Below, piece by piece: positions 15,090 through 28,113 of a stretch of 64,000 bases of DNA. The first letter of the stretch is position 1; each line of letters starts with the position of its first letter. A program made the position numbers and the translations under genes. The notes beneath the pieces were generated by a model that was not told where the DNA came from, made no database searches, and saw only the letters and a list, made by a program, of their open reading frames with translations. This stretch comes from Antiquaquibacter soli (GTDB taxonomy: Bacteria > Actinomycetota > Actinomycetes > Actinomycetales > Microbacteriaceae): the NCBI RefSeq assembly GCF_030580675.1, contig NZ_JAUQUB010000001.1:620001-684000 (forward strand), given 5' to 3'.

Positions 15090-15121
15090 ACGAAGTCCCG
15101 GGCGCGCGATAATTGACTCCC

Positions 15122-16867
15122 GTGTCCCCGGTGATCGACGGCCAGCATCCCGTTCGCTCGATCGGTCGTCTGCTCGGCCGGTATCGAGCGTCCGTCGCTG
15201 CCTCCGTGCTGCTCTTCGCTGTCAAGGACAGCCCGCTGTGGGTCATGCCGATCGTCACCTCGGCCGTGATCGACATCGTCGTCGCAGGCGGCCCGATGAG
15301 CCAGCTCTGGGTCTGGGTGATCGTTGCGGCCGTCGTACTCCTGCAGAACTTCCCCGTCCACGTCCTGTGGACACGGCTCTTCCACGGCGCCGTGCGCCAC
15401 CTAGGAGCCGACTTGCGCAACGCACTGGCCTCTCGCTTGCAGAACCTCTCCATCGGATTCCACTCGCGCGCGAGCGCTTCCGTCATCCAGTCGAAAGTCG
15501 TCCGCGACGTCGAGAACGTCGAGCTCATGCTGATGCAGGGCGTGCCGTCCGCCCTCTCGGCACTCCTCGTGCTCATCGGGGCCCTCACGATGACCGCGCT
15601 GCGGGTACCGCAGTTCATCCTCGTCTTCGCCCTCACCGTGCCGTTCGCGGTCGGGCTCTACGCTCTCGTGCGGGTGCGGGCGAACCGTCGCAACGAGCGC
15701 TTCCGCCGCGAGGTCGAGCAGTTCTCCGCCCGCGTCGGTGAGATGGCGACCCTCATGCCGATCACTCGTGCGCACGGGCTGGAGCGCGTCGCCGAGGACC
15801 GCGTCGCCCGGGCCGCCGAGGGCGTGCGGGATGCCGGGCTCACGCTCGACATGCTCAACAGCCGCTTCGGCTCCGCCACGTGGGTGGTGTTCCAGATCCT
15901 CGCCTTCGGCACCCTCGTCGGGGCGGCGTTCGCGTCCATCGGCGGGGTCATCCCGATCACGGCCGGCGAGGTCGTGCTGCTCTCGACCTACTTCACCCTC
16001 CTCACCGGCGGGATCACGAACCTGCTCATGCTCGTGCCCGTCGTGGCGAAGGGGCTCGAGTCGGCCCGCTCGATCGGCGAGGTGATGGCCGAGCCGGACC
16101 TCGAGCTCAACGAGGGCAAGGCGCCGGTGTCCGCGGTCGAGGGCGGGATCGAGCTCGTCGACGTGCACGTGCGGTACGCCGGTGCCGACAGCGATGCGCT
16201 CGACGGCGTGAGCCTCAGCATCCACCCGGGGGAGACTGTCGCGTTCGTCGGCTCGTCGGGCTCCGGCAAGTCGACGCTTCTCAACCTCGTGCTCGGGTTC
16301 CTGAGGCCGACGAGTGGTCGCATCCTCCTCGACGGCTCCGACATGGAGTCTCTCGACATGCGCACCTACCGCTCCTCCGTCTCGGTGGTGCCCCAGGAAT
16401 CGGTGCTCTTCGAGGGGACGATCCGCGAGAACGTCACCTACGGGCTCGAGGGCGTTCCCGATGAGCGCGTCGTCGGTGCGCTGCGCGAAGCGAACGCGCT
16501 CGAGATCGTCGAGTCGCTGGCCGATGGATGGGACACGGTCGTGGGGGAGCGCGGCGCGCGGCTCTCGGGCGGTCAGCGGCAGCGCCTCGCGATCGCCCGC
16601 GCGCTCGTCCGCGACCCGGCGGTGCTGCTCCTCGACGAGGCGACCTCGGCGCTCGACCCGGAGTCCGAGTCGTACGTGCGGGACGCGCTCGCGCACCTGC
16701 TGGCCGACCGGACGGCCCTCGTCGTGGCGCATCGCCTGTCCACCATTCGCTCGGCGGACCGCATCGTCGTGCTCGAGCGCGGGCGCATCGTCGAGGTCGG
16801 CTCGCACGAGGAGCTGCTCGCGGCCGAGGGACGTTACGCAACACTGCATCGTGCCCAATCGGCGTAG
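15122..16867 (+). CDS. ABC exporter, fused permease and ATPase
   Basis: The 581-residue half-transporter has an N-terminal six-helix exporter domain (about 1-320) and a C-terminal ATPase. The ATPase shows Walker A GSSGSGKST, Q-loop VVPQES, signature LSGGQRQR, Walker B VLLLDEATSALD and the switch histidine in VAHRLSTI. All catalytic residues are present, so it should form an active homodimer or heterodimer. The substrate cannot be read from the sequence. The GTG at 15122 gives the usual N-terminus; a TTG nine bases earlier is possible. It follows the acyltransferase gene closely, so the pair may modify and export a surface lipid or glycan, which is inference. Confidence 0.87.
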   Translation: MSPVIDGQHPVRSIGRLLGRYRASVAASVLLFAVKDSPLWVMPIVTSAVIDIVVAGGPMSQLWVWVIVAAVVLLQNFPVHVLWTRLFHGAVRHLGADLRNALASRLQNLSIGFHSRASASVIQSKVVRDVENVELMLMQGVPSALSALLVLIGALTMTALRVPQFILVFALTVPFAVGLYALVRVRANRRNERFRREVEQFSARVGEMATLMPITRAHGLERVAEDRVARAAEGVRDAGLTLDMLNSRFGSATWVVFQILAFGTLVGAAFASIGGVIPITAGEVVLLSTYFTLLTGGITNLLMLVPVVAKGLESARSIGEVMAEPDLELNEGKAPVSAVEGGIELVDVHVRYAGADSDALDGVSLSIHPGETVAFVGSSGSGKSTLLNLVLGFLRPTSGRILLDGSDMESLDMRTYRSSVSVVPQESVLFEGTIRENVTYGLEGVPDERVVGALREANALEIVESLADGWDTVVGERGARLSGGQRQRLAIARALVRDPAVLLLDEATSALDPESESYVRDALAHLLADRTALVVAHRLSTIRSADRIVVLERGRIVEVGSHEELLAAEGRYATLHRAQSA

Positions 16868-16892: not shown

Positions 16893-17651
16893 GTGTCAGC
16901 CGCGTCGGAGTCGCCCGCCATCAGGCCTGACTACCCCGAGCCGCTGTGGATCCAAGCGGCGAACCTCATCACCGCGGAGATCGAGAGCGGTGCGCTCAAG
17001 CCGGGGATGCGGCTGCCGCCCGAGCGCGAGCTCTGCGAGCAACTCGGCATCAGCCGGGTGACGCTGCGCAAGGCGCTCACGAAACTCGTCGACGAGGGGC
17101 TGCTCAACGCGTCACACGGCCGCGGCTGGTACGTCGCGTCGACCCCGACGAGCAAGGACTGGCCCAACAGCCTCGAATCGTTCTCCGAGACGGCCCGCCG
17201 CATGGGGCTGACAGCGAGCTCGAGCATCCTGCGCTCGGAGGTCGTGCCGGCGACCATCGACGAGGCCGAGGAGTTCCTCATCGCGCCAGGCAGCCCGCTC
17301 TTCCACCTCGACCGGGTGCGCTCGCTCAACGGGGTGCCGACCGCGATCGACTACACGCGCATCCCCGCCGACTACGTGCCGCGCTTCGTGGACACCGACT
17401 TCACGACCGCATCGCTCTACGAGGAGCTCGAGGCGGCGGGGGTCGCACCCCAGCGCGCCGACTCGACGATCGAGGCACGCGCCGCCGACGACTACGCCGC
17501 CACGCACCTCGATCTCGCCGTCGGCGCGCCGCTGCTCGTCATGAACCAGCGGGTGATGGATGCCTCGGACCGGCCGCTGCTCGCATCCAAGATCCAGTAC
17601 TCGGGAGACCGGTACCGGTTGCGCACGTTCTTCGCGCGTGGCCGCCGCTAG
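16893..17651 (+). CDS. GntR/HutC-family transcriptional regulator (first paralogue)
   Basis: The 252-residue regulator has a GntR winged helix at about residues 10-80 (LPPERELCEQLGISRVTLRKAL) and a UTRA effector-binding domain from about 95 to the end. HutC-type proteins bind sugars, amino sugars or amino acids and usually repress an adjacent catabolic operon. It resembles the second regulator at 22052-22804 along its whole length, down to SLESFSETA and ADSTIEAR. It is convergent with the importer genes. TGGTNTAC half-sites precede its GTG start, suggesting autoregulation or cross-regulation with its paralogue. Confidence 0.88.
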   Translation: MSAASESPAIRPDYPEPLWIQAANLITAEIESGALKPGMRLPPERELCEQLGISRVTLRKALTKLVDEGLLNASHGRGWYVASTPTSKDWPNSLESFSETARRMGLTASSSILRSEVVPATIDEAEEFLIAPGSPLFHLDRVRSLNGVPTAIDYTRIPADYVPRFVDTDFTTASLYEELEAAGVAPQRADSTIEARAADDYAATHLDLAVGAPLLVMNQRVMDASDRPLLASKIQYSGDRYRLRTFFARGRR

Positions 17652-17663
17652 CGCTCCAGCGCG

Positions 17664-18509
17664 CTACTTGCCGTAGCCCGCGCTGAGGCCCTGGATGAAC
17701 TGGCGCGAGAACACCGTGAACAGCAGGATGAGCGGCACGGCCCCGAGCGTAAGCGCGGCCAGGAGCGCGGGGTAGTCGCTCTGGAACTGCCCCACGAACT
17801 GCTGCACGCCGAGCGTCACGGTCTGGTTCTCGCGCGACGGCGCGAGGATGAGCGGGAACCACAGGTCGTTCCACACCGGCAGCATCGTGATGGATGCCAC
17901 GGCAGCGATGCCCGGCCGCACGATCGGTACCGCGATACCGAGCGTGCGAAACTCGCCGGCCCCGTCAATGCGCGCCGCTTCCTTGAGCTCGGTCGGCACC
18001 GAGCGGAAGTAGGTCATCATGAGCGCGACCGCCAGGGGAAGCGTCATCGCGGTGTACACGAGGATGAGGGCGAGCAGCGTGTCGATGATGCCCCACGAGA
18101 TCATCGTCTTGAGGATCGGCACAGTGCCGAGGCGGATCGGGAGCATGATCCCGATGATGAAGAACCCGGCGAGCAGCGGCGCGATCCGCACCTTGTACTC
18201 GGTGAGGGCCCACGCCGCCGCGGTCGCGAGCACGATGACGAGGAGCGTCGTGGCGATCGTGACGATGAGGCTGTTCTGGTAGTTGAGGAAGAACTCGCCG
18301 CGCTTGAAGACGTTCTCGTAGCCCTGCAGGTTGAAGGTCTCCGCGGTCGGCGGCACGAACGGCCCGGTGAAGATTCCCTGCGTCGTCTTGAACGAGTTCA
18401 TGATGACGGTGAGGATCGGGCCGATCGCGAGGATCACGAAGACGATCAGCAGCCCGTGCGTGAGGAGGACGTTCGGCAGCCCGGCCGAGGTGGCTCGATT
18501 CGAGGTCAT
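17664..18509 (-). CDS. Carbohydrate ABC transporter permease (MalG type)
   Basis: The 281-residue membrane protein has six predicted segments and the EAA loop EAARIDGAGEFRTLGIAVPI, which docks the ATPase. It is the inner-membrane partner of the permease encoded upstream and ends with the family-typical LSAGYGK. The ATG at 18509 lies eight bases after the upstream permease stop, so the genes are in one operon. No dedicated ATPase gene is in the locus. As in many actinobacterial sugar importers, a shared MsiK-like ATPase encoded elsewhere probably drives it. Confidence 0.9.
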   Translation of the reverse strand: MTSNRATSAGLPNVLLTHGLLIVFVILAIGPILTVIMNSFKTTQGIFTGPFVPPTAETFNLQGYENVFKRGEFFLNYQNSLIVTIATTLLVIVLATAAAWALTEYKVRIAPLLAGFFIIGIMLPIRLGTVPILKTMISWGIIDTLLALILVYTAMTLPLAVALMMTYFRSVPTELKEAARIDGAGEFRTLGIAVPIVRPGIAAVASITMLPVWNDLWFPLILAPSRENQTVTLGVQQFVGQFQSDYPALLAALTLGAVPLILLFTVFSRQFIQGLSAGYGK

Positions 18510-18517
18510 GGTGGCTC

Positions 18518-19405
18518 CTAGAGCTCGTACGTCTTGAGTCGGCGCTGCAGCACCCAGAAGTACGCGGCGGTCGTGACGAGGATGATGAAGAAGATGACGG
18601 AAGCGACGGTCGCGCCGAGGTCCAGGTTGGCGACCTGCCCGCTCGATCCGAAGAACGTGCGGTAGAAGAGGGTGCCGAGGATGTCCGTCGAGTAGTTCGG
18701 GCCCGGCGCCGAGCCGTTGAGCGCGTAGACGATGTCGAAGCCGTTGAACGTCCAGATGTAGGTGAGGATCGCGATGAGCCCGAACTGCGGCGCGATGAGG
18801 GGGAACTTGATGCGCCAGAACGTGCTCCATCCGGTGGAGCCGTCGATGCGCGCGGCTTCGAGGATGTCGCCGGGGATCGCCAGCAGCGCCGTGTAGAGGA
18901 AGATCATCGGGATACCGACGTACTGCCACACCGACATGAGGGAGATCGTCGGCAGCGCGGTCACCTCGTTGCCGAGCAGCGGGAAGCTCACGATGCCCCA
19001 GAGCGGGCTGATGATGAGGCGCCAGATGAAGCCGACGATGACGACCGACAGGGTCGCGGGGATGAACAAGAGCGTGCGGTAGACGCCCGTCGAGCGGCGC
19101 AGGACGCCGGAGGTCAGCAGCGCCGCCATGAGCAGGCCGACGGGGACCTCGACGACGAGGTGGATGAGGAAGAACACCACGTTGTTGCCGAGCGCGTTCC
19201 AGAAGCGCTCGCTCGTGGCCTCGTTCGTGAACAGGAAGACGTAGTTCTCGAAGCCGACGAAGACACTGCCCACCGGGCCGTCGGAGTCGAAGAAGCTCAG
19301 GACGACCGAGCTGATGAGGGGGTACACGCTGAACGCCACATAGATCGCGAGGGCGGGCAGCACGAAGAGGATGAGGTTGCGGTAGCTGGCTGCCGTGCGC
19401 TTCAT
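18518..19405 (-). CDS. Carbohydrate ABC transporter permease (MalF type)
   Basis: The 295-residue protein has six membrane segments and the EAA loop EAARIDGSTGWSTFWRIKFP. It pairs with the MalG-type permease downstream to form the channel of a binding-protein-dependent importer. It follows the solute-binding protein gene, separated by an 88-base gap that contains a strong hairpin. This order (binding protein, MalF, MalG) is standard for carbohydrate importers of the CUT1 class. The specificity is set by the binding protein and is not known. Confidence 0.9.
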   Translation of the reverse strand: MKRTAASYRNLILFVLPALAIYVAFSVYPLISSVVLSFFDSDGPVGSVFVGFENYVFLFTNEATSERFWNALGNNVVFFLIHLVVEVPVGLLMAALLTSGVLRRSTGVYRTLLFIPATLSVVIVGFIWRLIISPLWGIVSFPLLGNEVTALPTISLMSVWQYVGIPMIFLYTALLAIPGDILEAARIDGSTGWSTFWRIKFPLIAPQFGLIAILTYIWTFNGFDIVYALNGSAPGPNYSTDILGTLFYRTFFGSSGQVANLDLGATVASVIFFIILVTTAAYFWVLQRRLKTYEL

Positions 19406-19442
19406 GCCTGCTCCTTACGGTTGCGGTGTTCGGATGATACGG

Positions 19443-19481
19443 CGATGGGCCGCGCCGGCGTGCGCCAGACGCGGCCCATCG
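19443..19481 (-). promoter_or_regulatory. Intercistronic hairpin between binding protein and permease genes
   Basis: Perfect 12-bp arms (CGATGGGCCGCG at 19443-19454 and its reverse complement at 19470-19481) enclose a 15-base loop. The position, just after the binding-protein stop, is where importer operons often carry a hairpin that protects the upstream message or attenuates read-through. It would give more binding protein than permease. No T-run follows, so it is not a simple terminator. Confidence 0.6.
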
Positions 19482-19493
19482 GTCGTGTGCGGA

Positions 19494-20768
19494 CTAGCCT
19501 GCCGGGACGTACCAGGAGTCCAGGCCCGCCTGGAGCTCGGCCGTGGCCGACTCCGGCGTGAGGGTGCCCGCGTACATCTGCTGCAGGGCGACCCAGATCT
19601 CGTCGTCAAGCGGCGGGGTTCCGGCGCTCAGGCGGTCGAGGGCCAGTCGCGGGGTGAGCTCGGCGTCCGTCTTGAGGTCGCTGAACGCCTGCGCGAGCGG
19701 GTTGTCGTAGGCCGGGGCATCCGTCGTCATCGCGAAGAAGCCGGGAAGCTTGTTGACGTACAGCTCCAGGAACTCCGGGGTGACGAGCCAGTTGAGGAAC
19801 TCGGTCGCCGCGTCCTTGTTCTTGCTCGACGCGTTGAGGCCGATCGCCATGTCGGGCATCTCCTGCTGGTAGCGCTGGTCACCGGCGGCCGGAACCGGGG
19901 CACCGAACACGCCGACATCGAGGCCGGTGCTCGTCAGCTGGTTGATGTTCCACGAGCCGTCGGGGATGATCGCCGCCTGGCCGAGGCTGAACAGCTGCCC
20001 CATGTCGTCGTAGGTGATCGCCTCGTAGCCCTCGGGGAGGAACGGGACGAGCGCCTCGGTGGCCGCGAACGCGTCGACGAAGCCGGGGTCGGTGAGCTTC
20101 TGGGTGCCGTCGATGAGGCCGAGTCGGCCCTCCTCGCCCTTCCAGTAGTTCGGGCCCAGGTTGTAGAGCACGTTGTAGGCGAGCTGCCAGCCGTCGGCCG
20201 AGCCGAGGGCGAGCGGCGTGTAGGTGCCGTCGTCCTTGATCGCCTGCAGCACGTCGATGAAGTCCGCCTGCGTCTCCGGGACCTCGAGGCTGAGCTCGTC
20301 GAAGATCGCCTTGTTGTAGTAGAAGCCGGCGAGAACGGATGCCACGGGCACGCAGTACGTCGCGCCGTCGGCGCCCTGCCACGCGGCCTGGGCCGTCGGA
20401 GTGAAGGAGTCGAGCGCCTCGAGACCGGTGAGGTCGTCGAAGTAGCCGTCGGCGATCCACGCGCGGTTGACGTCGAACGGGCGGCACGTGATGAGGTCGG
20501 GCGCGTTGCCGCCCTCGACCTGCGACTGGATGGCCGCGTTGTAGTCGTTGGTGTCGGTCGCCGCGAACTCCACCTCGATGTTCGGGTGGCTCTCGTGGAA
20601 CGCGGGGAGGATCTCGTCCTCCCACATCGCGATGTCCTCCGTGCGCCAGCTGCCGAGGGTGAGCTTGACGGTGTCGCCGCTGTCGGAGCCTCCCGTCGCG
20701 CAACCGGCGAGGGTCAGGCCCATGGCGGTGACGGCGAGCGCTGCGAGTGGTGCAAGTCGTGAACGCAT
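19494..20768 (-). CDS. Extracellular solute-binding lipoprotein of a sugar-type importer
   Basis: The 424-residue precursor has a lipoprotein signal with lipobox LAGC and Cys23. The mature protein has the two-lobe family-1 solute-binding fold: KLTLGSWRTEDIAMWED at the start, EVEFAATDTNDYNAAIQ, then LNWLVTPEFLE near the end. It captures a sugar or sugar derivative outside the cell and hands it to the two permeases. The ATG at 20768 follows AGAGGAC. An in-frame start 48 bases upstream would add a non-signal N-terminus. Its mRNA leader contains a tandem 19-bp repeat that forms small hairpins. Confidence 0.9.
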   Translation of the reverse strand: MRSRLAPLAALAVTAMGLTLAGCATGGSDSGDTVKLTLGSWRTEDIAMWEDEILPAFHESHPNIEVEFAATDTNDYNAAIQSQVEGGNAPDLITCRPFDVNRAWIADGYFDDLTGLEALDSFTPTAQAAWQGADGATYCVPVASVLAGFYYNKAIFDELSLEVPETQADFIDVLQAIKDDGTYTPLALGSADGWQLAYNVLYNLGPNYWKGEEGRLGLIDGTQKLTDPGFVDAFAATEALVPFLPEGYEAITYDDMGQLFSLGQAAIIPDGSWNINQLTSTGLDVGVFGAPVPAAGDQRYQQEMPDMAIGLNASSKNKDAATEFLNWLVTPEFLELYVNKLPGFFAMTTDAPAYDNPLAQAFSDLKTDAELTPRLALDRLSAGTPPLDDEIWVALQQMYAGTLTPESATAELQAGLDSWYVPAG

Positions 20769-20797
20769 TGTGTCCTCTCTGTACACATCGTGCTGTT

Positions 20798-20835
20798 GTG
20801 CTTCGGGTGAAGCCACGTGCTTCGGGTGAAGCCAC
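20798..20835. repeat. Tandem 19-bp repeat in the binding-protein gene leader
   Basis: Two exact head-to-tail copies of GTGCTTCGGGTGAAGCCAC lie at 20798-20816 and 20817-20835, 30 bases upstream of the binding-protein start on the opposite strand. Each copy contains the dyad CTTC-GGGT-GAAG. They may be a recent duplication, regulator half-sites, or a leader structure in the importer mRNA. Confidence 0.75.
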
Positions 20836-20921
20836 CGCTCTGTGGGTGCCGAGCGCGTGTGCTGGTCAGCATATAGATGTCATCGAGAGGTAGCAAGAGG
20901 TATTTACAAACTCGAAACCTA

Positions 20922-20940
20922 GTAGACCAAAGGTGTACCA
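20922..20940. promoter_or_regulatory. Putative GntR operator in the divergent promoter region
   Basis: On the minus strand this site reads TGGTACAC then TGGTCTAC, matching the half-sites before the first GntR gene. It lies between the divergent binding-protein and oxidoreductase genes, a sensible place to control both directions of the catabolic locus. Confidence 0.45.
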
Positions 20941-20996
20941 ATCAGTATCATGTGGTGTGCGTGCCCGATCGGGGCGCACAGCACCGAGGAGGACGC

Positions 20997-22055
20997 ATGG
21001 TTGGCATTGGAATTCTGGGATCTGGATTCATCAGTGACCAGTACGTCGACGGGCTGCAGGATGTGCGCGCGGCCGACATCGTCGCCAACTACTCCCGCGA
21101 CCTCGACCGGGCACAAGAGTTCGCCGCCAAGTGGTCGCCGGTCGTCTCCCTCTCGCGCGGCATGACCTCGTACGACGACATGGAGGCGCTGTGCGCCGAC
21201 CCCGCCGTCGAGCTCGTCATCATCGCCCTGCCCAACGAGGTGCACGTCGAGGCCGTCGGCCTCGCGGCGAAGTACGGCAAGGGCGTCATCTGCACCAAGC
21301 CGCTCGCCCGCACCGGGGCGGAGGCGAAGCAGATCCTCGACATCGTCGAGTCGAGCGGCATCTGGGCCGCCTACGCGGAGTGCTCCGTGTTCTCGCCCAA
21401 CATCGTCAAGGCCTACGACATGGTCCAGGCCGGCGGTATCGGCGACCTCTTGACCATGCGCGCCCGCGAGGGTCACTCCGGTCCGCACGCCCCCCACTTC
21501 TGGGACGCCGAGACCGCCGGGGGCGGGGCGCTGCTCGACATGGGCTGCCACACCGTCGAGTCGGCCCGCCACTTCTTCGGCAAGGACAACCCCGTCACCG
21601 AGGTCTGGGCGTGGGGCGCGACCCTCGTGCACGGCGACAAGACCACGGGGGAGGACGTCGCGACCGCGATCCTCAAGTTCGCCGGCGGCCAGGTCGCGAC
21701 CGTCGAGTCGTCGTGGATCGAGAAGGGCGGGATGCAGCTGCGCCACGAGTTCGTGGGGACGGCCGGGCGCCTCTACACCGACAGCTCCGCGACTCCCGTG
21801 TGGGGGTTCATCCAGAATCCCGTCGGCTACCTCGTCGAGAAGTCGGACGCGGAGACCGGCTGGGTCTACCCGGTGCCCGAGGAGGCCCGCGCCTACGGCT
21901 TCTCGCAGCAGTTCCGCAGCTTCGTGACCTCCTTCGAGAAGGGGGAGCAGCCGGTGGAGACCTTCCAGGACGGCTTCATCGTCAACTGCATCCTCGACGC
22001 CTGCTACGCCTCGATGACGTCGGGCGTCTGGGAGAAGGTCAGCTACGAGCGATGA
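20997..22055 (+). CDS. Gfo/Idh/MocA family oxidoreductase
   Basis: The 352-residue protein has an N-terminal Rossmann domain (GIGILGSGFISDQYVDGL) and the family motif in the form CTKPLARTGAEA, where the usual EKP lysine is kept. The C-terminal domain has GGGALLDMGCHTVESARHFFG. Members oxidise sugars, inositols or related polyols with NAD(P). It would act on the imported compound or a product of it. The ATG at 20997 follows GAGGAGGAC. The stop overlaps the next gene by four bases (ATGA), beginning a translationally coupled run from oxidoreductase to amine oxidase. Confidence 0.9.
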   Translation: MVGIGILGSGFISDQYVDGLQDVRAADIVANYSRDLDRAQEFAAKWSPVVSLSRGMTSYDDMEALCADPAVELVIIALPNEVHVEAVGLAAKYGKGVICTKPLARTGAEAKQILDIVESSGIWAAYAECSVFSPNIVKAYDMVQAGGIGDLLTMRAREGHSGPHAPHFWDAETAGGGALLDMGCHTVESARHFFGKDNPVTEVWAWGATLVHGDKTTGEDVATAILKFAGGQVATVESSWIEKGGMQLRHEFVGTAGRLYTDSSATPVWGFIQNPVGYLVEKSDAETGWVYPVPEEARAYGFSQQFRSFVTSFEKGEQPVETFQDGFIVNCILDACYASMTSGVWEKVSYER

Positions 22056-22804
22056 CCCTTCTCGTCCGAACCGACTACCCGGACCCGTTGTGGCTCCAGG
22101 CGGTCGACGTCATCCGGCGCGATGTCGCCGACGGCCGGCTGCCGGTCGGGTCGCGGCTGCCGCCCGAGCGCGAGCTGTGCGAGGCGCTCAGCATCAGCCG
22201 CGTCACCCTGCGCAAGGCGCTCGCCCGGCTCGTCGACGAGGGCGTGCTGCGCTCGTCGCACGGCCGCGGCTGGTTCGTCGCGTCCGGTGGGGGAACCGAT
22301 TGGCCGAACAGCCTCGAGTCGTTCAGCGAGACCGCCGACCGGATGGGGCTCCGCGCGTCATCCCGGATCCTCCGACAGGAGATCGTGCCCGCGACGATCG
22401 ACGAGGCCGAGGAGCTCTCCGTGGCCCCGGGAAGTCCGCTCTTCCACCTCGAGCGCGTGAGGCTCCTCGACGACGTGCCGGTGGCGATGGATGACTCGCG
22501 CGTGCCCGCCGCCCTCGTCCCCGGTATCGAGCACATCGACTTCGGGCTCGCCTCCCTCTACGAGCGGCTCGCATCCGAGGGCGTCGACCCGCACCGTGCC
22601 GACTCCACCATCGAGGCGCGCAGCGCAGACGACTCCCTCGCGACCCACCTCTCCGTGCAGCCGGGCACCCCCGTGCTCGTCATGCACCAGCTCGTCGTCG
22701 ACTCGCTCGAGCATCCCGTGCTCGCCTCGACCATCCGCTACGCGGGCGAGCGCTACCGCCTGCGCACCGCCTTCGCCCGCTCACAGAAAGCAGACCACCG
22801 ATGA
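22052..22804 (+). CDS. GntR/HutC-family transcriptional regulator (second paralogue)
   Basis: The 250-residue regulator has the same architecture as the one at 16893-17651: winged helix with LPPERELCEALSISRVTLRKAL and a UTRA domain from about residue 90. The two are clearly paralogues. This copy is inside the catabolic operon, overlapping the genes on both sides by four bases (ATGA), so its level rises with the operon it probably controls. The effector is unknown. HutC relatives such as FrlR and NagR respond to phosphorylated amino-sugar compounds. Confidence 0.88.
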   Translation: MTLLVRTDYPDPLWLQAVDVIRRDVADGRLPVGSRLPPERELCEALSISRVTLRKALARLVDEGVLRSSHGRGWFVASGGGTDWPNSLESFSETADRMGLRASSRILRQEIVPATIDEAEELSVAPGSPLFHLERVRLLDDVPVAMDDSRVPAALVPGIEHIDFGLASLYERLASEGVDPHRADSTIEARSADDSLATHLSVQPGTPVLVMHQLVVDSLEHPVLASTIRYAGERYRLRTAFARSQKADHR

Positions 22805-24768
22805 CCAGCCCCAGCATCGCCGCCGCCCTCTCGACGATCACCGCGGCCGAGATCGCCGCCAACCGCGCCATCCTCGAGCGGGAGGGAATCGCCAGCCCGA
22901 CCGTGCAGTACTCCTACGTGGGGCTGCAGGAGCCGGACAAGCGCGAGCTTCTCGCGTCGGGGGTTGCGGACCGGCGCATCCGGTCGATGCTCGTCGACAT
23001 GGCGACCAATGTCTCGCGCGACGTCGTCGTCTCGATCGCCGAGGACCGCGTCGTCTCCGACCGCGTGCTCGACCACGCGGTCGACGGACAGGTGCCGGTT
23101 GTCGTCGACGAGTTCATCGTCGTGGCCGAGATCAAGAAGAACGCCGAGTGGCAGGCGGCCATGGTCAAGCGCGGTCTCACAGACTTCGACAAGCTCGTGA
23201 TCAACCCCCTGTCGGCGGGCGTGCTGAGCGATGCCGAGTCGGGTCGTCGCATCCAGCGCTGCTTCACGTTCGTCATGGATTCGCCGGACGACCTCGGCTG
23301 GGCGCACCCGGTCGACGGAGTCACCGTCATGTTCGATGTCGTGACGAAGGAGGTGCTCGAGGTCGTCGACTACGTCGAGCTGCCGGTTCCCCTCGAGAGC
23401 GGCAACTTCCACCTCGAGTCGTGGCGCGGGCCCGACCGGCAGGGCCTCAAGCCCATCGAGATCACCCAGCCCGAGGGGCCGAGCTTCACGATCGACGAGA
23501 ACGGCACGCTGTCGTGGCTCGGCTGGAACCTCCAGGTCGGCTTCGACCAGCGCGAGGGCCTCGTGTTCCACAACGTCACGATCGATGACAAGGGAGTGGC
23601 TCGGCCCGTGATCTACCGCGCCTCCATCGCCGAGATGATGGTGCCCTACGGCGACCCGAGCCCCCAGCGCTGGTTCCAGAACTTCTTCGACTGCGGCGAG
23701 TACCTGCTCGGCGGCTACGCGAACTCGCTCGAGCTCGGGTGCGACTGCGTGGGCGACATCACCTATCTCGATGCGGTCGTCGCCGGCAACGACGGGGCGG
23801 CGAAGATCATCCCGCAGGCCATCTGCATCCACGAGGAGGACGCCGGAATCCTCTGGAAGCACTTCGACAACTGGAACGGGTCGAGCGAATCCCGCCGCAA
23901 CCGCCGGCTCGTGGTGTCGTTCTTCGTCACCGTCGGCAACTACGACTACGGCTTCTACTGGTACTTCGGCCTCGACGGCACCATCGAGTTCGAGGTCAAG
24001 GCGACGGGTGTCGTCTTCACGTCGGCGTACCCGGGGGAGGGCTACAAGTTCGCCTCCGAACTCGCGCCGGGCCTCGGAGCCCCGTACCACCAGCACCTGT
24101 TCAGCGCCCGCCTCGACATGATGGTCGACGGGCTCGACAACGCGGTGGACGAGCTCGAGGCGGTGCTCGTGCCCCGCGGACCCGAGAACCCGACAGGCAC
24201 CGGCTTCACCCAGACCGTCACGCGGTTGCGGACCGAGCAGGATGCCCAGCGCCTGGCCTCCACCGAGACCGGCCGTGTCTGGCTCGTCTCCAACCCCGGC
24301 GTCAAGAACCGGCTCGGGCGCGATGTCGGCTGGGTGCTCTACCCGGAGGGGCGGCCCACGCTGCTCGCCGACGCCGAGTCCGACATCTACCAGCGCGCCA
24401 CCTTCTGCACGAAGCACCTGTGGGTCACGCCCTACGAGCCGTCGGAGCTGTACCCGGCAGGCGACTTCGTCAACATGCACCCGGGTGGCGCCGGCCTCCC
24501 GGCGTGGACGGCGGCGAACCGCTCGGTCGACACCACCGACATCGTTCTGTGGCACACCTTCGGCTTGACGCACTTCCCGCGCGTCGAGGACTGGCCGATC
24601 ATGCCCGTCGACACGTGCGGCTTCGTGCTCAAGCCGCACGGCTTCTTCGGCGCGAATCCGGCCATGGACATTCCTGCGTCGACGAGCGACCACTGCGCTC
24701 CGGGCGGCGCCGCGGACCACGACCACGGCGGGCACGGCGGGCACGAGCACCACGGACACGGGCACTGA
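22801..24768 (+). CDS. Copper-containing primary amine oxidase
   Basis: The 655-residue enzyme oxidises primary amines to aldehydes, releasing ammonia and hydrogen peroxide. The cofactor site is T-V-G-N-Y-D-Y, with Tyr381 the residue converted to topaquinone. The catalytic base matches Asp297 in FDCGEY. Copper ligands fit His430 and His432 (HQH) and His591 (THFPR). The sequence resembles Arthrobacter phenylethylamine and histamine oxidases. No signal peptide is seen, so it is cytoplasmic. The C-terminus ends in a tail rich in His (DHDHGGHGGHEHHGHGH), perhaps for copper binding. It overlaps the GntR gene by four bases. Confidence 0.94.
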   Translation: MTSPSIAAALSTITAAEIAANRAILEREGIASPTVQYSYVGLQEPDKRELLASGVADRRIRSMLVDMATNVSRDVVVSIAEDRVVSDRVLDHAVDGQVPVVVDEFIVVAEIKKNAEWQAAMVKRGLTDFDKLVINPLSAGVLSDAESGRRIQRCFTFVMDSPDDLGWAHPVDGVTVMFDVVTKEVLEVVDYVELPVPLESGNFHLESWRGPDRQGLKPIEITQPEGPSFTIDENGTLSWLGWNLQVGFDQREGLVFHNVTIDDKGVARPVIYRASIAEMMVPYGDPSPQRWFQNFFDCGEYLLGGYANSLELGCDCVGDITYLDAVVAGNDGAAKIIPQAICIHEEDAGILWKHFDNWNGSSESRRNRRLVVSFFVTVGNYDYGFYWYFGLDGTIEFEVKATGVVFTSAYPGEGYKFASELAPGLGAPYHQHLFSARLDMMVDGLDNAVDELEAVLVPRGPENPTGTGFTQTVTRLRTEQDAQRLASTETGRVWLVSNPGVKNRLGRDVGWVLYPEGRPTLLADAESDIYQRATFCTKHLWVTPYEPSELYPAGDFVNMHPGGAGLPAWTAANRSVDTTDIVLWHTFGLTHFPRVEDWPIMPVDTCGFVLKPHGFFGANPAMDIPASTSDHCAPGGAADHDHGGHGGHEHHGHGH

Positions 24769-24795
24769 TGACAACTGAACAGAGGGGGGCGGCTC

Positions 24796-25830
24796 ATGGT
24801 CGCTGACTACATCACCTACGCGAGCGCGCGCGCCACCCAGGCCGATGCGCTCGAGGCCGCCATCGCGCGGATCTCCGAGGAGGTGCTTCGCCAGCAGGAC
24901 GCGGGCGGGCTCCGCGGCCCCGGGCCGATCTTCGTCGGCATCGGAGCGAGCCTCGCCGCGGCATCCGCGCCGGTCTGGACGCTGCGTTCGCGCGGCATCC
25001 ACTCCTGGCGGCTGGGCGCGGGCGACTACCCGCTGCCGTGGCCCCTGAGCGTGCATCCCATCGTCGGCATCTCGCAGTCGGGCAAGAGCACGGAGACCCT
25101 CGCGGTGTTCGAGTCGATTGCCCCCGAGCTGCGCTACGCCGTCGTCAACACGCACCCGTCGCCCGTGTCGACGCTCGCGGCCACGACACTGTCGCTCGGC
25201 AACATCCCCGACAGCTACGCGTCGACGATCGGCTACACGGCGACGGTCACCGGACTCGGGATGCTCGCCGAGGCGTGGGACGGCGGCGCGCTCGACGCGG
25301 GCTGGCAGTCGCTCCCGGAGCTCTTCCGCTGGACGGAGCAGACCGTGGGCGCCCGGGCGGCGGAACTCGCCGCGACGTTCGCCGGCCGCGTCACCGCCGA
25401 CTTCGTCGGAGCCGGCCCCTCCGTCGGATCGGCCGAGGCCGGCGCCCTGCTGTTCCGCGAGGTCGCCCGGGTGCACGCCGCGGGCATGAGCACCCGGCAG
25501 TACCTCCACGGGTCGATGGAGTCGGCGGGCGGCGGAGTGCACGTGCTCTTCGGCGAGGAGCGCGAGCTCGACGCGGCCCGCATGCTCGCGGATGCCGGGC
25601 ACAGCGTCATCCTCATCACCTCTCTCGAGGTCCCGGAGGCGGAGCGGCTGCAGGTCGTCGCGCTCCCCTCGGTCGCCCCGAACCAGCGGGCGATCCTGGA
25701 GGCTCTCGTCATGCAGATCCTCGTCGGCGAGGTCGCCACCCAGGCGGGCGTCGAGATCGAGGAGTTCGTGTTCTTCCACACCGACACGAAGGTGTCCGAC
25801 GGCACCGACACGAAGGTGGCTGACGGCTGA
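24796..25830 (+). CDS. Double-SIS-domain sugar isomerase/deglycase-like protein
   Basis: The 344-residue protein has two SIS domains, as in the isomerase half of GlmS and in FrlB-type deglycases. The first contains GPIFVGIGASLAAA and the phosphosugar loop SQSGKSTET; the second contains DFVGAGPSVGSAEAGALLFREV and HGSMES. It lacks the GlmS glutaminase domain. Its length is close to fructoselysine-phosphate deglycase. The C-terminus ends with a short tandem repeat TDTKVSDG/TDTKVADG. The ATG at 24796 follows an AGAGGGGGG site. Its TGA shares one base with the kinase ATG. A role in splitting or isomerising a phosphorylated amino sugar is inferred. Confidence 0.82.
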   Translation: MVADYITYASARATQADALEAAIARISEEVLRQQDAGGLRGPGPIFVGIGASLAAASAPVWTLRSRGIHSWRLGAGDYPLPWPLSVHPIVGISQSGKSTETLAVFESIAPELRYAVVNTHPSPVSTLAATTLSLGNIPDSYASTIGYTATVTGLGMLAEAWDGGALDAGWQSLPELFRWTEQTVGARAAELAATFAGRVTADFVGAGPSVGSAEAGALLFREVARVHAAGMSTRQYLHGSMESAGGGVHVLFGEERELDAARMLADAGHSVILITSLEVPEAERLQVVALPSVAPNQRAILEALVMQILVGEVATQAGVEIEEFVFFHTDTKVSDGTDTKVADG

Positions 25831-26717
25831 TGGTCTCGGTCATCGTGGGTCTCGACGTCGGCGGCACCAAGACCGCCGTCGTCGTCGAGACCGTGGACGG
25901 GGATCGCCTCGTCGACACCGTGCTGCCGTCGGACGGCTGGGATGCCGAACCCCTCCACCACGGTGTGCGCTGGGTCGCCGACCGCATCGCCGCGGTGCTC
26001 CCGTCCGACGCCGCGGTGGCCGCCGTCGGGATCGGTGCCCAGGGCCTCGACACCCCGGAGATCGCGGACGATTTCGCGCGCGCACTCGGGGCGGGCTACC
26101 CGGCGGTGGCCGTCAACGATGCCGCGCTGCTCGTTCCCGCGGCCGGCCACGACGACGGCATGGGCCTCATTTCGGGCACCGGGGCGATCGGCGTGGGGCG
26201 CGCGGCATCCGGCGTTCCTCTCATCACGGGCGGCTGGGGGTGGGTGATCGGCGACGAAGCCGGTGCCGCGGGCATCGTCCGCGAGGCGAGTCGGGCCGCC
26301 CTGCTCGCCCACGACGACGGGATGCCCGATGACGGGCTGCTCGGCGCCCTGCTCGCTGCCTTCGGCGTGGACGACGCCGAACGCCTCGCCCGCGCCGTCA
26401 ACGACGAGCCGACCATGGACAACTGGGGTCCGCGCGCCCCGGCGGTGTTCGCCGCCGCCGACGCCGGGTCGGCGCTGGCCGCGACCGTGATCGACGGGGC
26501 CGCGCTCCACCTCGCACGGCTCGTCGACCAGCTCCTCGCCCGCGGAGCGGTCGGATCCGTGGTCGTCGCCGCGGGCGGCGTGATCACTCGGCAGCCGCGC
26601 CTGTTCGACGCGCTGTCGCGATATGTGGGGGAGCGGCATCCGTCGCTCTCCGTCGACCTGCTGACCCGCGCCCCCGTCGAGGGCGCCGTCCGTCTCGCCC
26701 GCCGGGCGCTTTCCTGA
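25830..26717 (+). CDS. BadF/BadG/BcrA/BcrD-type (N-acetylglucosamine-kinase-like) kinase
   Basis: The 295-residue protein has the ASKHA sugar-kinase fold: phosphate-1 loop VGLDVGGTKTAVV at the N-terminus, catalytic-side VAVNDAALL, phosphate-2 LISGTGAIGVG, and GWGWVIGDEAGAAG. Relatives phosphorylate N-acetylglucosamine or similar sugars with ATP. Coupled directly to the SIS protein (one-base overlap), it probably phosphorylates the imported sugar derivative so that the SIS enzyme can act on it. The substrate is unproven. Confidence 0.85.
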   Translation: MVSVIVGLDVGGTKTAVVVETVDGDRLVDTVLPSDGWDAEPLHHGVRWVADRIAAVLPSDAAVAAVGIGAQGLDTPEIADDFARALGAGYPAVAVNDAALLVPAAGHDDGMGLISGTGAIGVGRAASGVPLITGGWGWVIGDEAGAAGIVREASRAALLAHDDGMPDDGLLGALLAAFGVDDAERLARAVNDEPTMDNWGPRAPAVFAAADAGSALAATVIDGAALHLARLVDQLLARGAVGSVVVAAGGVITRQPRLFDALSRYVGERHPSLSVDLLTRAPVEGAVRLARRALS

Positions 26718-26736
26718 TCGAACGAAGGAGTTCACC

Positions 26737-28113
26737 ATGGCCATCGCCACCCTCAACCCCACCACCGGTCTCGTCGAGAAGACGTTCGAGCCGCACTCGC
26801 CGGATCAGGTCGAGCAGATCCTCGAGCGCGCGCGGCTCGCCAATGCCGCACTGCGCGCGACGACCTTCGCACAGCGCCGGGAGTGGATGCATCGCGCGGC
26901 CGACCTCATGGACGCCGACCTCGAGCACCTCGCCGCGCTCGCCGCGACCGAGATGGGCAAGACGATCGGCACCGCGAAGTACGAGGTGACGAAATCGGCG
27001 AACGGCATGCGGCACTACGCCGACCACGCCGAGGAGTATCTCGCCGACGAGACGCCGGTCGAGGCATCCGCCGTCGGGGCATCCGTCGCTCGCGTCATCT
27101 TCCAGCCCATCGGCACCGTGCTCGCGGTCATGCCGTGGAACTACCCGTTCTGGCAGGTGATCCGCTTTGCCGCCCCCGCGCTCATGGCGGGCAACACCGG
27201 CCTGCTCAAGCACGCGTCGAGCGTTCCGCAGGTTGCGCTCTACCTCGGGGAGCTCTTCGAGCGGGCGGGATTCCCGGCGGGAGCCTTCCAGACGCTGCTC
27301 ATCGAAGGGGCCGCGGCCTCGGCGCTCATCGACGACCGGCGGATCGCCGCCGTGACCCTCACCGGCTCGGTCGGAGCGGGCGCTGCGGTCGCCGAGGCGG
27401 CGGGGCGCAACATCAAGAAGAGCGTTCTCGAGCTCGGCGGGACCGACGTGTTCGTCGTCGCCCCGTCGGCGGACATCGCCAAGTCGGCGCAGTTCGGAGC
27501 GAACTCCCGCACCCAGAACTCGGGTCAGTCGTGCATCTGCGCGAAGCGCTTCTACGTGCACGAGGACGTCTACGACGAGTGGTTCGCGGCGTTCCTCCAG
27601 GCGATGACGGCGACGGTGGCGGGCGATCCGTTCGACCCCGAGACCTCCTTCGGGCCGATGGCTACCGAGTCGGTGCGCGCCGAGGCGCACGAGCTCGTCG
27701 CCGACGCCATCGCGAAGGGCGTCACCGTCCACACCGGCGGCGAGCTGCCCGACGGCCCCGGCTGGTTCTACCCGGCGACCGTGCTCACCGGGGTCACCCC
27801 CGAGATGCGCATCTACCGCGAGGAGTGCTTCGGACCCGTGGCGTGCGTCTACAAGGTCGCGTCGATCGACGAGGCCATCGCACTCTCGAACGACTCCGAG
27901 TTCGGTCTCGCCGCCTCCGTCTGGTCGTCCGACGCGGCCGAGCTCGACCGGCTCCAGCGCGAGCTCGAGTTCGGCGCCGTCTTCGCCAACGGCAACACCG
28001 CGTCGTTCTTCGGCCTGCCCTTCGGCGGGGTCAAGGACTCCGGCTACGGCCGCGAGCTAGGCAAGTTCGGCATCCGCGAATTCGTCAACGCGAAGACGGT
28101 GTGGACGGCGTAG
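26737..28113 (+). CDS. NAD(P)-dependent aldehyde dehydrogenase (succinate-semialdehyde type)
   Basis: The 458-residue enzyme has the full ALDH set: VMPWNYPFWQVIRFAAPAL (cofactor cleft), LTGSVGAGAAVAEAAG, catalytic Glu in LELGGTDVF and catalytic Cys266 in SGQSCICAKR. It most resembles the succinate-semialdehyde dehydrogenase group. Placed 19 bases after the kinase with the site GAAGGAG, it would oxidise the aldehyde made by the amine oxidase of the same operon to a carboxylic acid. The precise aldehyde is unknown. Confidence 0.9.
   Translation: MAIATLNPTTGLVEKTFEPHSPDQVEQILERARLANAALRATTFAQRREWMHRAADLMDADLEHLAALAATEMGKTIGTAKYEVTKSANGMRHYADHAEEYLADETPVEASAVGASVARVIFQPIGTVLAVMPWNYPFWQVIRFAAPALMAGNTGLLKHASSVPQVALYLGELFERAGFPAGAFQTLLIEGAAASALIDDRRIAAVTLTGSVGAGAAVAEAAGRNIKKSVLELGGTDVFVVAPSADIAKSAQFGANSRTQNSGQSCICAKRFYVHEDVYDEWFAAFLQAMTATVAGDPFDPETSFGPMATESVRAEAHELVADAIAKGVTVHTGGELPDGPGWFYPATVLTGVTPEMRIYREECFGPVACVYKVASIDEAIALSNDSEFGLAASVWSSDAAELDRLQRELEFGAVFANGNTASFFGLPFGGVKDSGYGRELGKFGIREFVNAKTVWTA

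Follow-up and report, generated by a model that had tools for sequence, protein, structure and literature searches.

What single nutrient, or pair of nutrients, would require a sugar importer, a sugar kinase, a double-SIS enzyme, a copper amine oxidase (CAO) and an aldehyde dehydrogenase (ALDH) to be encoded side by side? The question is raised by a ten-gene locus at positions 16893–28113 of the window, the full 64,000-nt stretch of DNA analysed here, from the 3.22-Mb genome of Antiquaquibacter soli. The locus is a real, conserved catabolic unit, not a chance neighbourhood, and its genes are very probably co-regulated. A compound holding both an amino sugar and a primary amine is the best-supported substrate class, and a co-regulated locus for one such compound is given a probability of about 0.4.

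Organization and conservation of the locus

Six genes follow one another on the + strand and, judged by their layout, are one coupled operon: a Gfo/Idh/MocA dehydrogenase (Gfo; 20997..22055), a GntR/UTRA regulator (GntR2; 22052..22804), the CAO (22801..24768), the double-SIS sugar-phosphate enzyme with its C-terminal DTK motif (24796..25830), a BadF-type sugar or amino-sugar kinase (25830..26717) and the ALDH (26737..28113). Four-base overlaps join Gfo to GntR2 and GntR2 to the CAO, a one-base overlap joins SIS to BadF, and the gaps are 19 bp between BadF and ALDH and 27 bp between CAO and SIS, the latter being the maximum in the run. The preliminary description had placed the amine oxidase inside such an operon, and all the genes that it named are found where it had located them; the overlaps and narrow gaps bear out the coupling, and the gene layout in the window lends no support to expression of the amine oxidase apart from the rest, which that description had named as grounds for abandoning its proposal.

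The − strand carries a sugar-type solute-binding protein (SBP; 19494..20771; SBP_bac_1, 126 bits) and two sugar ABC permeases, PermB (18518..19405) and PermC (about 17664..18509), each with 43 bits to BPD_transp_1. A second regulator, GntR1 (16893..17651), stands by itself on the + strand and is 64% identical to GntR2; both proteins combine a GntR helix-turn-helix with a UTRA domain in the HutC manner (Pfam; UTRA 127 bits and GntR 72 bits in GntR1, UTRA 125 bits in GntR2). The Gfo enzyme is assigned by Pfam, with 114 bits to the NCBIfam model IolG (cut-off 355) and 6jw6 as its best solved-structure match (97 bits), and the ALDH is of the AldH/GabD1 type (NCBIfam AldH 792 bits, cut-off 800).

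Analysis of related genomes reveals that this arrangement recurs widely (G labels denote genomes and L labels loci). A scan of named genomes yields 66 distinct related loci, 55 actinobacterial (Microbacteriaceae, Streptomycetaceae, Streptosporangiaceae, Micromonosporaceae, Pseudonocardiaceae and others) and 11 rhizobial, so that the survey of conserved clusters proposed in the preliminary description extends across Actinomycetota and rhizobia. BadF lies downstream of SIS within 150 bp in 63 of the 66 loci. The actinobacterial-type CAO is present in 45, invariably upstream on the SIS strand, at no more than 700 bp in 27 and at 1.4–2.3 kb in 18. After eight loci are dropped as too short, genes within 9.5 kb of SIS, counted with minimum identities for most, comprise GntR in 57 of 58 complete loci, BadF in 55, Gfo in 49, CAO in 43 (of the rhizobial type in L098, L100, L103 and L111), a sugar SBP in 34, an SBP5 in 21 and an ALDH of any kind in 36, although 19 of these ALDHs are only 30–50% identical and hence partly due to chance. 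Both CAO and ALDH are present in 34 loci, CAO alone in nine, ALDH alone in two and neither in 13 (Fisher p=1e-5). This value, like the one below, is uncorrected for relatedness, and near-identical loci are contributed by several genera.

Searches of 398 genomes of the same family (Microbacteriaceae) with SIS, CAO and Gfo give a similar picture. SIS matches at E<=1e-20 occur in 32 genomes, 14 of which, including that of the window, hold orthologues at least 55% identical. AGAO-like CAOs at E<=1e-100 are found in 124 genomes and the locus type (at least 73% identical, next best 57%) in 14. SIS orthologue and locus-type CAO coincide in 12 genomes (Fisher p=3e-19); the CAO lacks its SIS partner in G170 and G220, and the SIS orthologue lacks a locus-type CAO in G098 and G210. 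Gfo at E<=1e-90 (at least 64%) is present in 12 genomes, namely 11 with the SIS orthologue plus G041. That the genes are neighbours by accident and share no pathway is scarcely credible: only the separability of the modules, described below, would favour it, and against it stand the dedicated CAO clade and dozens of loci in which the genes recur together and in order. None of nine other sampled genomes of the window's genus has a SIS match at E<=1e-20, and because the spread is so patchy, a niche-specific nutrient is suggested.

In some related loci the genes are fragmented. The CAO at L042:5574-7473, and the CAO and SIS matches at L046:5788-10565, lie in two or three pieces and are either broken copies or sequencing errors. 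In the genome of L114 the CAO is in two pieces (G413:C1:1197540-1198747); should C1 be the contig of L114, these would lie about 12 kb before SIS.

The amine oxidase and the shared promoter elements

The window CAO is the sole match to its family in the genome. It contains full-length CAO domains (Cu_amine_oxid 495 bits, AGAO-like_N2 73 bits) and scores 828 bits against PRK11504, above the cut-off of 651. Against phenylethylamine oxidase 1rjo it scores 720 bits, with the aligned NYD, HQH and H positions conserved, which we take to be the TPQ (topaquinone) motif and the copper histidines. The locus CAO thus belongs to the same subfamily as AGAO, the phenylethylamine oxidase of Arthrobacter globiformis, and differs from it in three respects: it is linked to a sugar pathway by operon and operator-like elements, it falls in a clade of its own, and in the QN(Y/F)FD stretch its F replaces the Y of AGAO, a residue that we take to be the gate. 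The actinobacterial locus CAOs form one clade (100/100, 49 rows), which excludes nine further CAOs encoded by these actinobacterial genomes. Besides the window, the 49 rows represent 44 loci, three copies at zero distance from loci and a G414 CAO from outside its SIS locus; L111 and L118 (partial) and L151 and L162 (copies of rows present) are excluded from the tree, which uses 20 of 31 CAO match rows.

These features bear on the proposal that the CAO attacks the amino group of the amino sugar itself, either a CH2-NH2 sugar or an unusual secondary-carbon amine, and that the ALDH oxidizes the resulting sugar aldehyde. In L166 a CAO/ALDH pair with GntR1 stands near sugar-type genes (a DUF993/Gfo/TIM-barrel trio) with no SIS, which fits such a reaction, but membership in the phenylethylamine-oxidase subfamily with conserved motifs speaks against it, and we know of no amino-sugar oxidation by a CAO of this type. 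Direct attack on the sugar is accordingly rated improbable.

The divergent SBP/Gfo promoter of the window contains a conserved tandem element, AGAGGTAGCAAGAGGTAT, at 20886..20903 on the + strand. By strict pattern, the element recurs in 27 of the 66 named loci, all of them among the 55 actinobacterial ones, always beside Gfo, at a distance of 68–130 bp from its match. Variants with high matrix scores occur in the CAO–SIS interval of L055, L056, L058, L059 and L061 and ahead of SIS in the two Mycetocola loci; the matrix was built from the listed sites, an 11-bit threshold gives 131 matches against about 80 expected, and only scores of at least 20 are used. A second element, TTGGTAY-N3/4-(T/G)TGGT, matches 15 times in 1.44 Mb, compared with 0–1 times in each of ten Markov-shuffled controls. 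Twelve of these matches are upstream of CAO in named loci and one is upstream of CAO in G220. The remaining two lie in the window Gfo/SBP promoter (TTGGTAC-N4-TTGGT, 20926..20941, − strand), where it is of the type seen upstream of CAO in related loci, and in a rhizobial SIS/BadF region (L100). The pattern postdates inspection of the promoters of L062, L063, L072, L073, L088, L166 and the window; matches not known beforehand are those of L060, L082, six loci closely related to L073, and L100, where the match falls within the SIS/BadF region. No operator of either pattern was found before the rhizobial CAO operon. The GntR proteins would be the factors that bind these putative operator elements. 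The tie between the sugar genes and the amine oxidase with its ALDH, on which the preliminary description had built, is upheld by the shared operon, the conserved loci and the common operator-like elements.

The DTK-tail SIS enzyme and the sugar

The Pfam SIS match of the double-SIS protein is weak (22.6 bits, below the 25-bit cut-off). The assignment is borne out by NCBIfam matches to glmS, PRK00331 and NagB_SO3506 (NagB-II), all far under their cut-offs, by 25 sequences of solved structures that a profile search recovered at E<=0.01, and by a structure model with a predicted local distance difference test (pLDDT) score of 84, which matches GlmS-type double-SIS folds with template-modelling (TM) scores of 0.67–0.77 on the query among the 50 Foldseek matches listed. 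An SQSG loop, E222 and H238 are invariant in an alignment of 13 orthologues. E222 and H238 are the equivalents of GlmS E488 and H504 and are common to all 19 SIS rows compared, hence not diagnostic. At the position of K485 (E. coli GlmS numbering), a residue that we take to define the GlmS/NagB-II family, GlmS, AgaS and the NagB-II-like SIS of A. fabrum have K, each of the 12 DTK rows has L or M (L in the window), and four FrlB-like rows have T, Y, I or V. The lysine of the DTK motif (GTK in L047) has no column-for-column alignment with K603, the catalytic lysine near the C-terminus of GlmS, and the tail of the model has a pLDDT below 50.

In the SIS tree, the DTK rows share one clade (100/99), to which neither the four FrlB-like rows nor GlmS and its companion, the NagB-II-like row, belong; several branches are long, which leaves the deeper order and the position of distant DTK rows within the clade unsure, and L095, L105 and L118 are excluded (stops or length). 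The window protein reaches 110–162 bits with nine distant DTK proteins but 31.6 bits with E. coli FrlB. FrlB membership is rejected on this score and the separate clade, subject to the long branches, and the Amadori/FrlB analogy drawn in the preliminary description finds no support here, its Amadori label being unearned. A housekeeping glucosamine-6-phosphate deaminase is weakened as a candidate by the K485 loss together with a NagB-like gene elsewhere in the genome.

BadF kinases accompany the DTK-tail SIS proteins in Actinomycetota, in rhizobia and on Klebsiella plasmids. It is tentatively proposed that these SIS proteins constitute a third family cutting sugar-nitrogen bonds, besides FrlB and GlmS/NagB-II, coupled here to an amine-burning CAO in an undescribed amino-sugar/amine-conjugate pathway. 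If this is true, SIS/BadF pairs labelled 'phosphosugar isomerase', 'SIS domain-containing protein' or hypothetical in plasmid records gain a function. Distant DTK relatives (31–34% identical) reside on plasmids, with amino-acid ABC importers beside L124 and L129, a YfcC transporter beside L123, and sugar ABC importers beside L125, L128, L130 and L135, L130 also having pyridoxal phosphate (PLP) amino-acid enzymes; FrlB-like SIS genes are close to L123, L125 and L129. Because these relatives differ in importers and neighbours, the substituent on the sugar nitrogen may vary across the clade. On the Klebsiella plasmid (L123:7988-20804), the DTK-type SIS, BadF kinase and YfcC transporter stand next to a second sugar-amine-type operon with LacI, an FrlB-like SIS, a PfkB kinase and an amino-acid ABC importer.

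The same neighbourhoods are relevant to an Amadori- or Heyns-type conjugate, in which the SIS protein would be a deglycase of an N-substituted sugar phosphate, freeing the amine for the CAO, with BadF in place of FrlD; a Heyns-type deglycase like GfrE would, by analogy, be one form of it. Like the FrlB-like rows, the SIS clade has the Glu/His pair and lacks the GlmS lysine K485, and the amino-acid importers (L124, L129), YfcC (L123), PLP enzymes (L130) and nearby FrlB-like SIS genes (L123, L125, L129) of its distant relatives would suit such a substrate. Set against these are the 31.6-bit score and separate clade, the sugar rather than amino-acid ABC importers of L125, L128, L130 and L135, and the GH9 enzymes and chitin-oligosaccharide-type importers described next, which favour a glucosamine sugar. 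A deglycase of this kind is therefore considered unlikely.

The identity of the sugar is approached through the kinase, the binding proteins and nearby hydrolases. The kinase is BadF-type, not FrlD-type, as the preliminary description had recognized (BcrAD_BadFG, 66 bits). Among solved structures it is nearest to the N-acetylmuramic acid/N-acetylglucosamine (MurNAc/GlcNAc) kinase 8zo3 (68 bits), and it is kin to NAGK/MurK; NagK_SO3507 gives only 50 bits (cut-off 370), so the fit is at family level only. The window SBP is, among solved structures, nearest to the sugar-binding protein 6pql (84 bits), then the chitin-oligosaccharide-binding proteins NagB1 (77) and NagB2 (70). Whereas window-like (type A) loci have a sugar ABC importer, type B loci (Streptomyces, Actinacidiphila and some Microbacteriaceae) have an SBP_bac_5 importer; a single type-B binding protein, that of L035, was compared with solved structures, and its closest match is the chitin-oligosaccharide-binding protein 1zty (167 bits). 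Glycoside hydrolase family 9 (GH9) genes lie within 9.5 kb in 11 of the 58 complete loci (Kutzneria, Mycetocola, Agromyces, Actinacidiphila and one Streptomyces). The one tested, from Kutzneria, matches 3h7l (430 bits), 6gdt (426 bits) and 5dgq (402 bits) and falls in the exo-glucosaminidase subgroup, which is reported to be active on chitosan oligosaccharides and beta-glucosides (PMC6096475). Because the kinase is NAGK/MurK-like, the binding proteins are of the chito-oligosaccharide type and GH9 genes adjoin related loci, the sugar part is most likely glucosamine-type as far as sequence can indicate, and beta-glucosides are also compatible. Type B loci often add ThuA, epimerase and TIM-barrel (AP_endonuc_2) proteins and a second Gfo, in similar order in loci such as L062, L078, L082 and L117; to us this set recalls 3-keto-glycoside cleavage pathways.

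Several known systems resemble the locus in part. The frl pathway (E. coli, B. subtilis; FrlB deglycase, FrlD kinase) likewise unites importer, kinase, double-SIS protein and regulator (E. coli frl genes) and has the Glu/His pair in common with the locus. FrlD is a PfkB-type kinase, and the FrlD-type kinase of frl/gfr-type Amadori operons is replaced here by BadF; moreover, the SIS protein sits in another clade, and Gfo, CAO and ALDH are added. The NagK/NagB-II glucosamine route of the Shewanella type also combines a BadF-type kinase with a SIS deaminase, and the NCBIfam models closest to the locus proteins are NagK_SO3507 (kinase) and glmS, PRK00331 and NagB_SO3506 (SIS). In contrast to that route, the locus proteins score far below the cut-offs, the K485 equivalent is lost, no deacetylase is found among the ten genes by Pfam, and an amine oxidase is added. 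Some of the same families use sugar-amine conjugates, as in soc (santhopine/Amadori opine) catabolism in Arthrobacter and Rhizobiaceae, according to PMC8262997, which for its part cites work on fructosyl-amine oxidases. The preliminary description knew of no described pathway with this exact gene set, and none was found in the open-access PMC literature, subscription papers being outside that scope.

One conjugate or two nutrients

Under the reading of a single amino-sugar/amine compound, the ABC importer would take up the compound, and the Gfo enzyme would oxidize a hydroxyl on its sugar part, presumably at C3 by analogy. The BadF kinase would phosphorylate the amino sugar, and the SIS enzyme would cut the carbon-nitrogen bond of the sugar phosphate through its conserved Glu/His pair, yielding a hexose phosphate. 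The CAO would convert the primary amine to an aldehyde, ammonia and peroxide, and the ALDH would convert the aldehyde to an acid. The two GntR proteins would repress the divergent promoters via tandem TGGTA-type half-sites. We infer that amine and sugar come from one molecule because the genes share an operon in 45 of 66 loci. If so, a mobile route for consuming a sugar-amine compound, sugar part and amine part alike, is shared among bacteria of the soil and rhizosphere.

A serious rival, though itself doubtful, is that two nutrients are handled by one regulon: SIS, BadF, Gfo and the ABC importer would serve an amino sugar (for example from chitosan-like material), CAO and ALDH would serve a free amine of the same material, and the same GntR family would control both, with no conjugate. 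The case for two pathways is made because the modules are separable. In G220 the stretch examined around the locus-type CAO/ALDH pair contains GntR1, an operator-like element, an APC permease and a gene for a small membrane protein, with no SIS, BadF or Gfo. In G170 the pair lies beside a permease with 348 bits to an ethanolamine-permease model (cut-off 382) and near glutamine-synthetase-like and PuuD-like genes of the gamma-glutamylation type. Conversely, Mycetocola and Kutzneria have SIS, BadF, GntR and GH9 without CAO. An APC permease like that of L037 (at least 55% identical) is present in L060, L064 and L120. Against two nutrients, the CAO lies upstream of SIS on the same strand in 45 of 66 loci and overlaps GntR2 by four bases in the window, and the L037-type APC amine importer reaches at least 55% identity in only those three of the 66 named loci, other importer types not having been searched for. 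At L165:1-6892 a CAO/ALDH pair of the locus type adjoins an ALDH gene together with ethanolamine-permease-like, glutamine-synthetase-like and PuuD-like genes.

In favour of a single compound, the rhizobia connect amine oxidation with the sugar genes a second time. Their CAO is different (40% identical); its operon also encodes a copper chaperone of the DUF2182/PpoB2 type, an ALDH and an importer of its own, whose binding protein (L098, one tested) is nearest to putrescine/polyamine-binding proteins (189 bits), a point on the side of two nutrients. CAO is present in all nine rhizobial genomes searched, of 11 named. The CAO operon is within 9.4 kb of an operon of SIS/BadF/Gfo/GntR/ABC genes in L098, L100, L103, L111 and L122, and in L106 the CAO is about 13 kb from SIS/BadF.

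Several findings weigh against a single conjugate. CAO is on another contig in four rhizobial genomes (L095, L105, L116 and L119), no CAO is found in six of 25 genomes searched (three Kutzneria, two Mycetocola and that of L112) though SIS and BadF are present, and CAO with ALDH occurs without the SIS orthologue in two of 14 genomes (G170 and G220). Since each module occurs without the other, neither half needs the other: CAO/ALDH can serve a free amine, and SIS/BadF can serve without CAO. The absence of the K485 equivalent in the SIS clade argues against a plain glucosamine-6-phosphate deaminase, and a NagB-like protein is encoded elsewhere in the window genome (219.5 bits, cut-off 236.9). Finally, GH9 was not found in the window's own genome in a search made without a positive control.

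A further gene group, the trio of DUF993, Gfo/Idh/MocA and TIM-barrel (AP_endonuc_2) genes, whole or partial and often with a LacI regulator, occurs at L121:8300-13300, adjoins L034, L037, L040, L043, L046 and L166, and lies between the CAO and SIS/BadF operons in L111. It was considered and rejected as part of the locus, being within 9.5 kb in only eight of 58 complete loci and, in the genome of the window, separated from the locus by about 586 kb of the same contig; no mention of DUF993 was found in the open-access PMC literature. Immediately upstream of the locus, an open reading frame at 15113-16867, exporter-like and of the ABC type by reading of its sequence, stops about 25 bp before GntR1.

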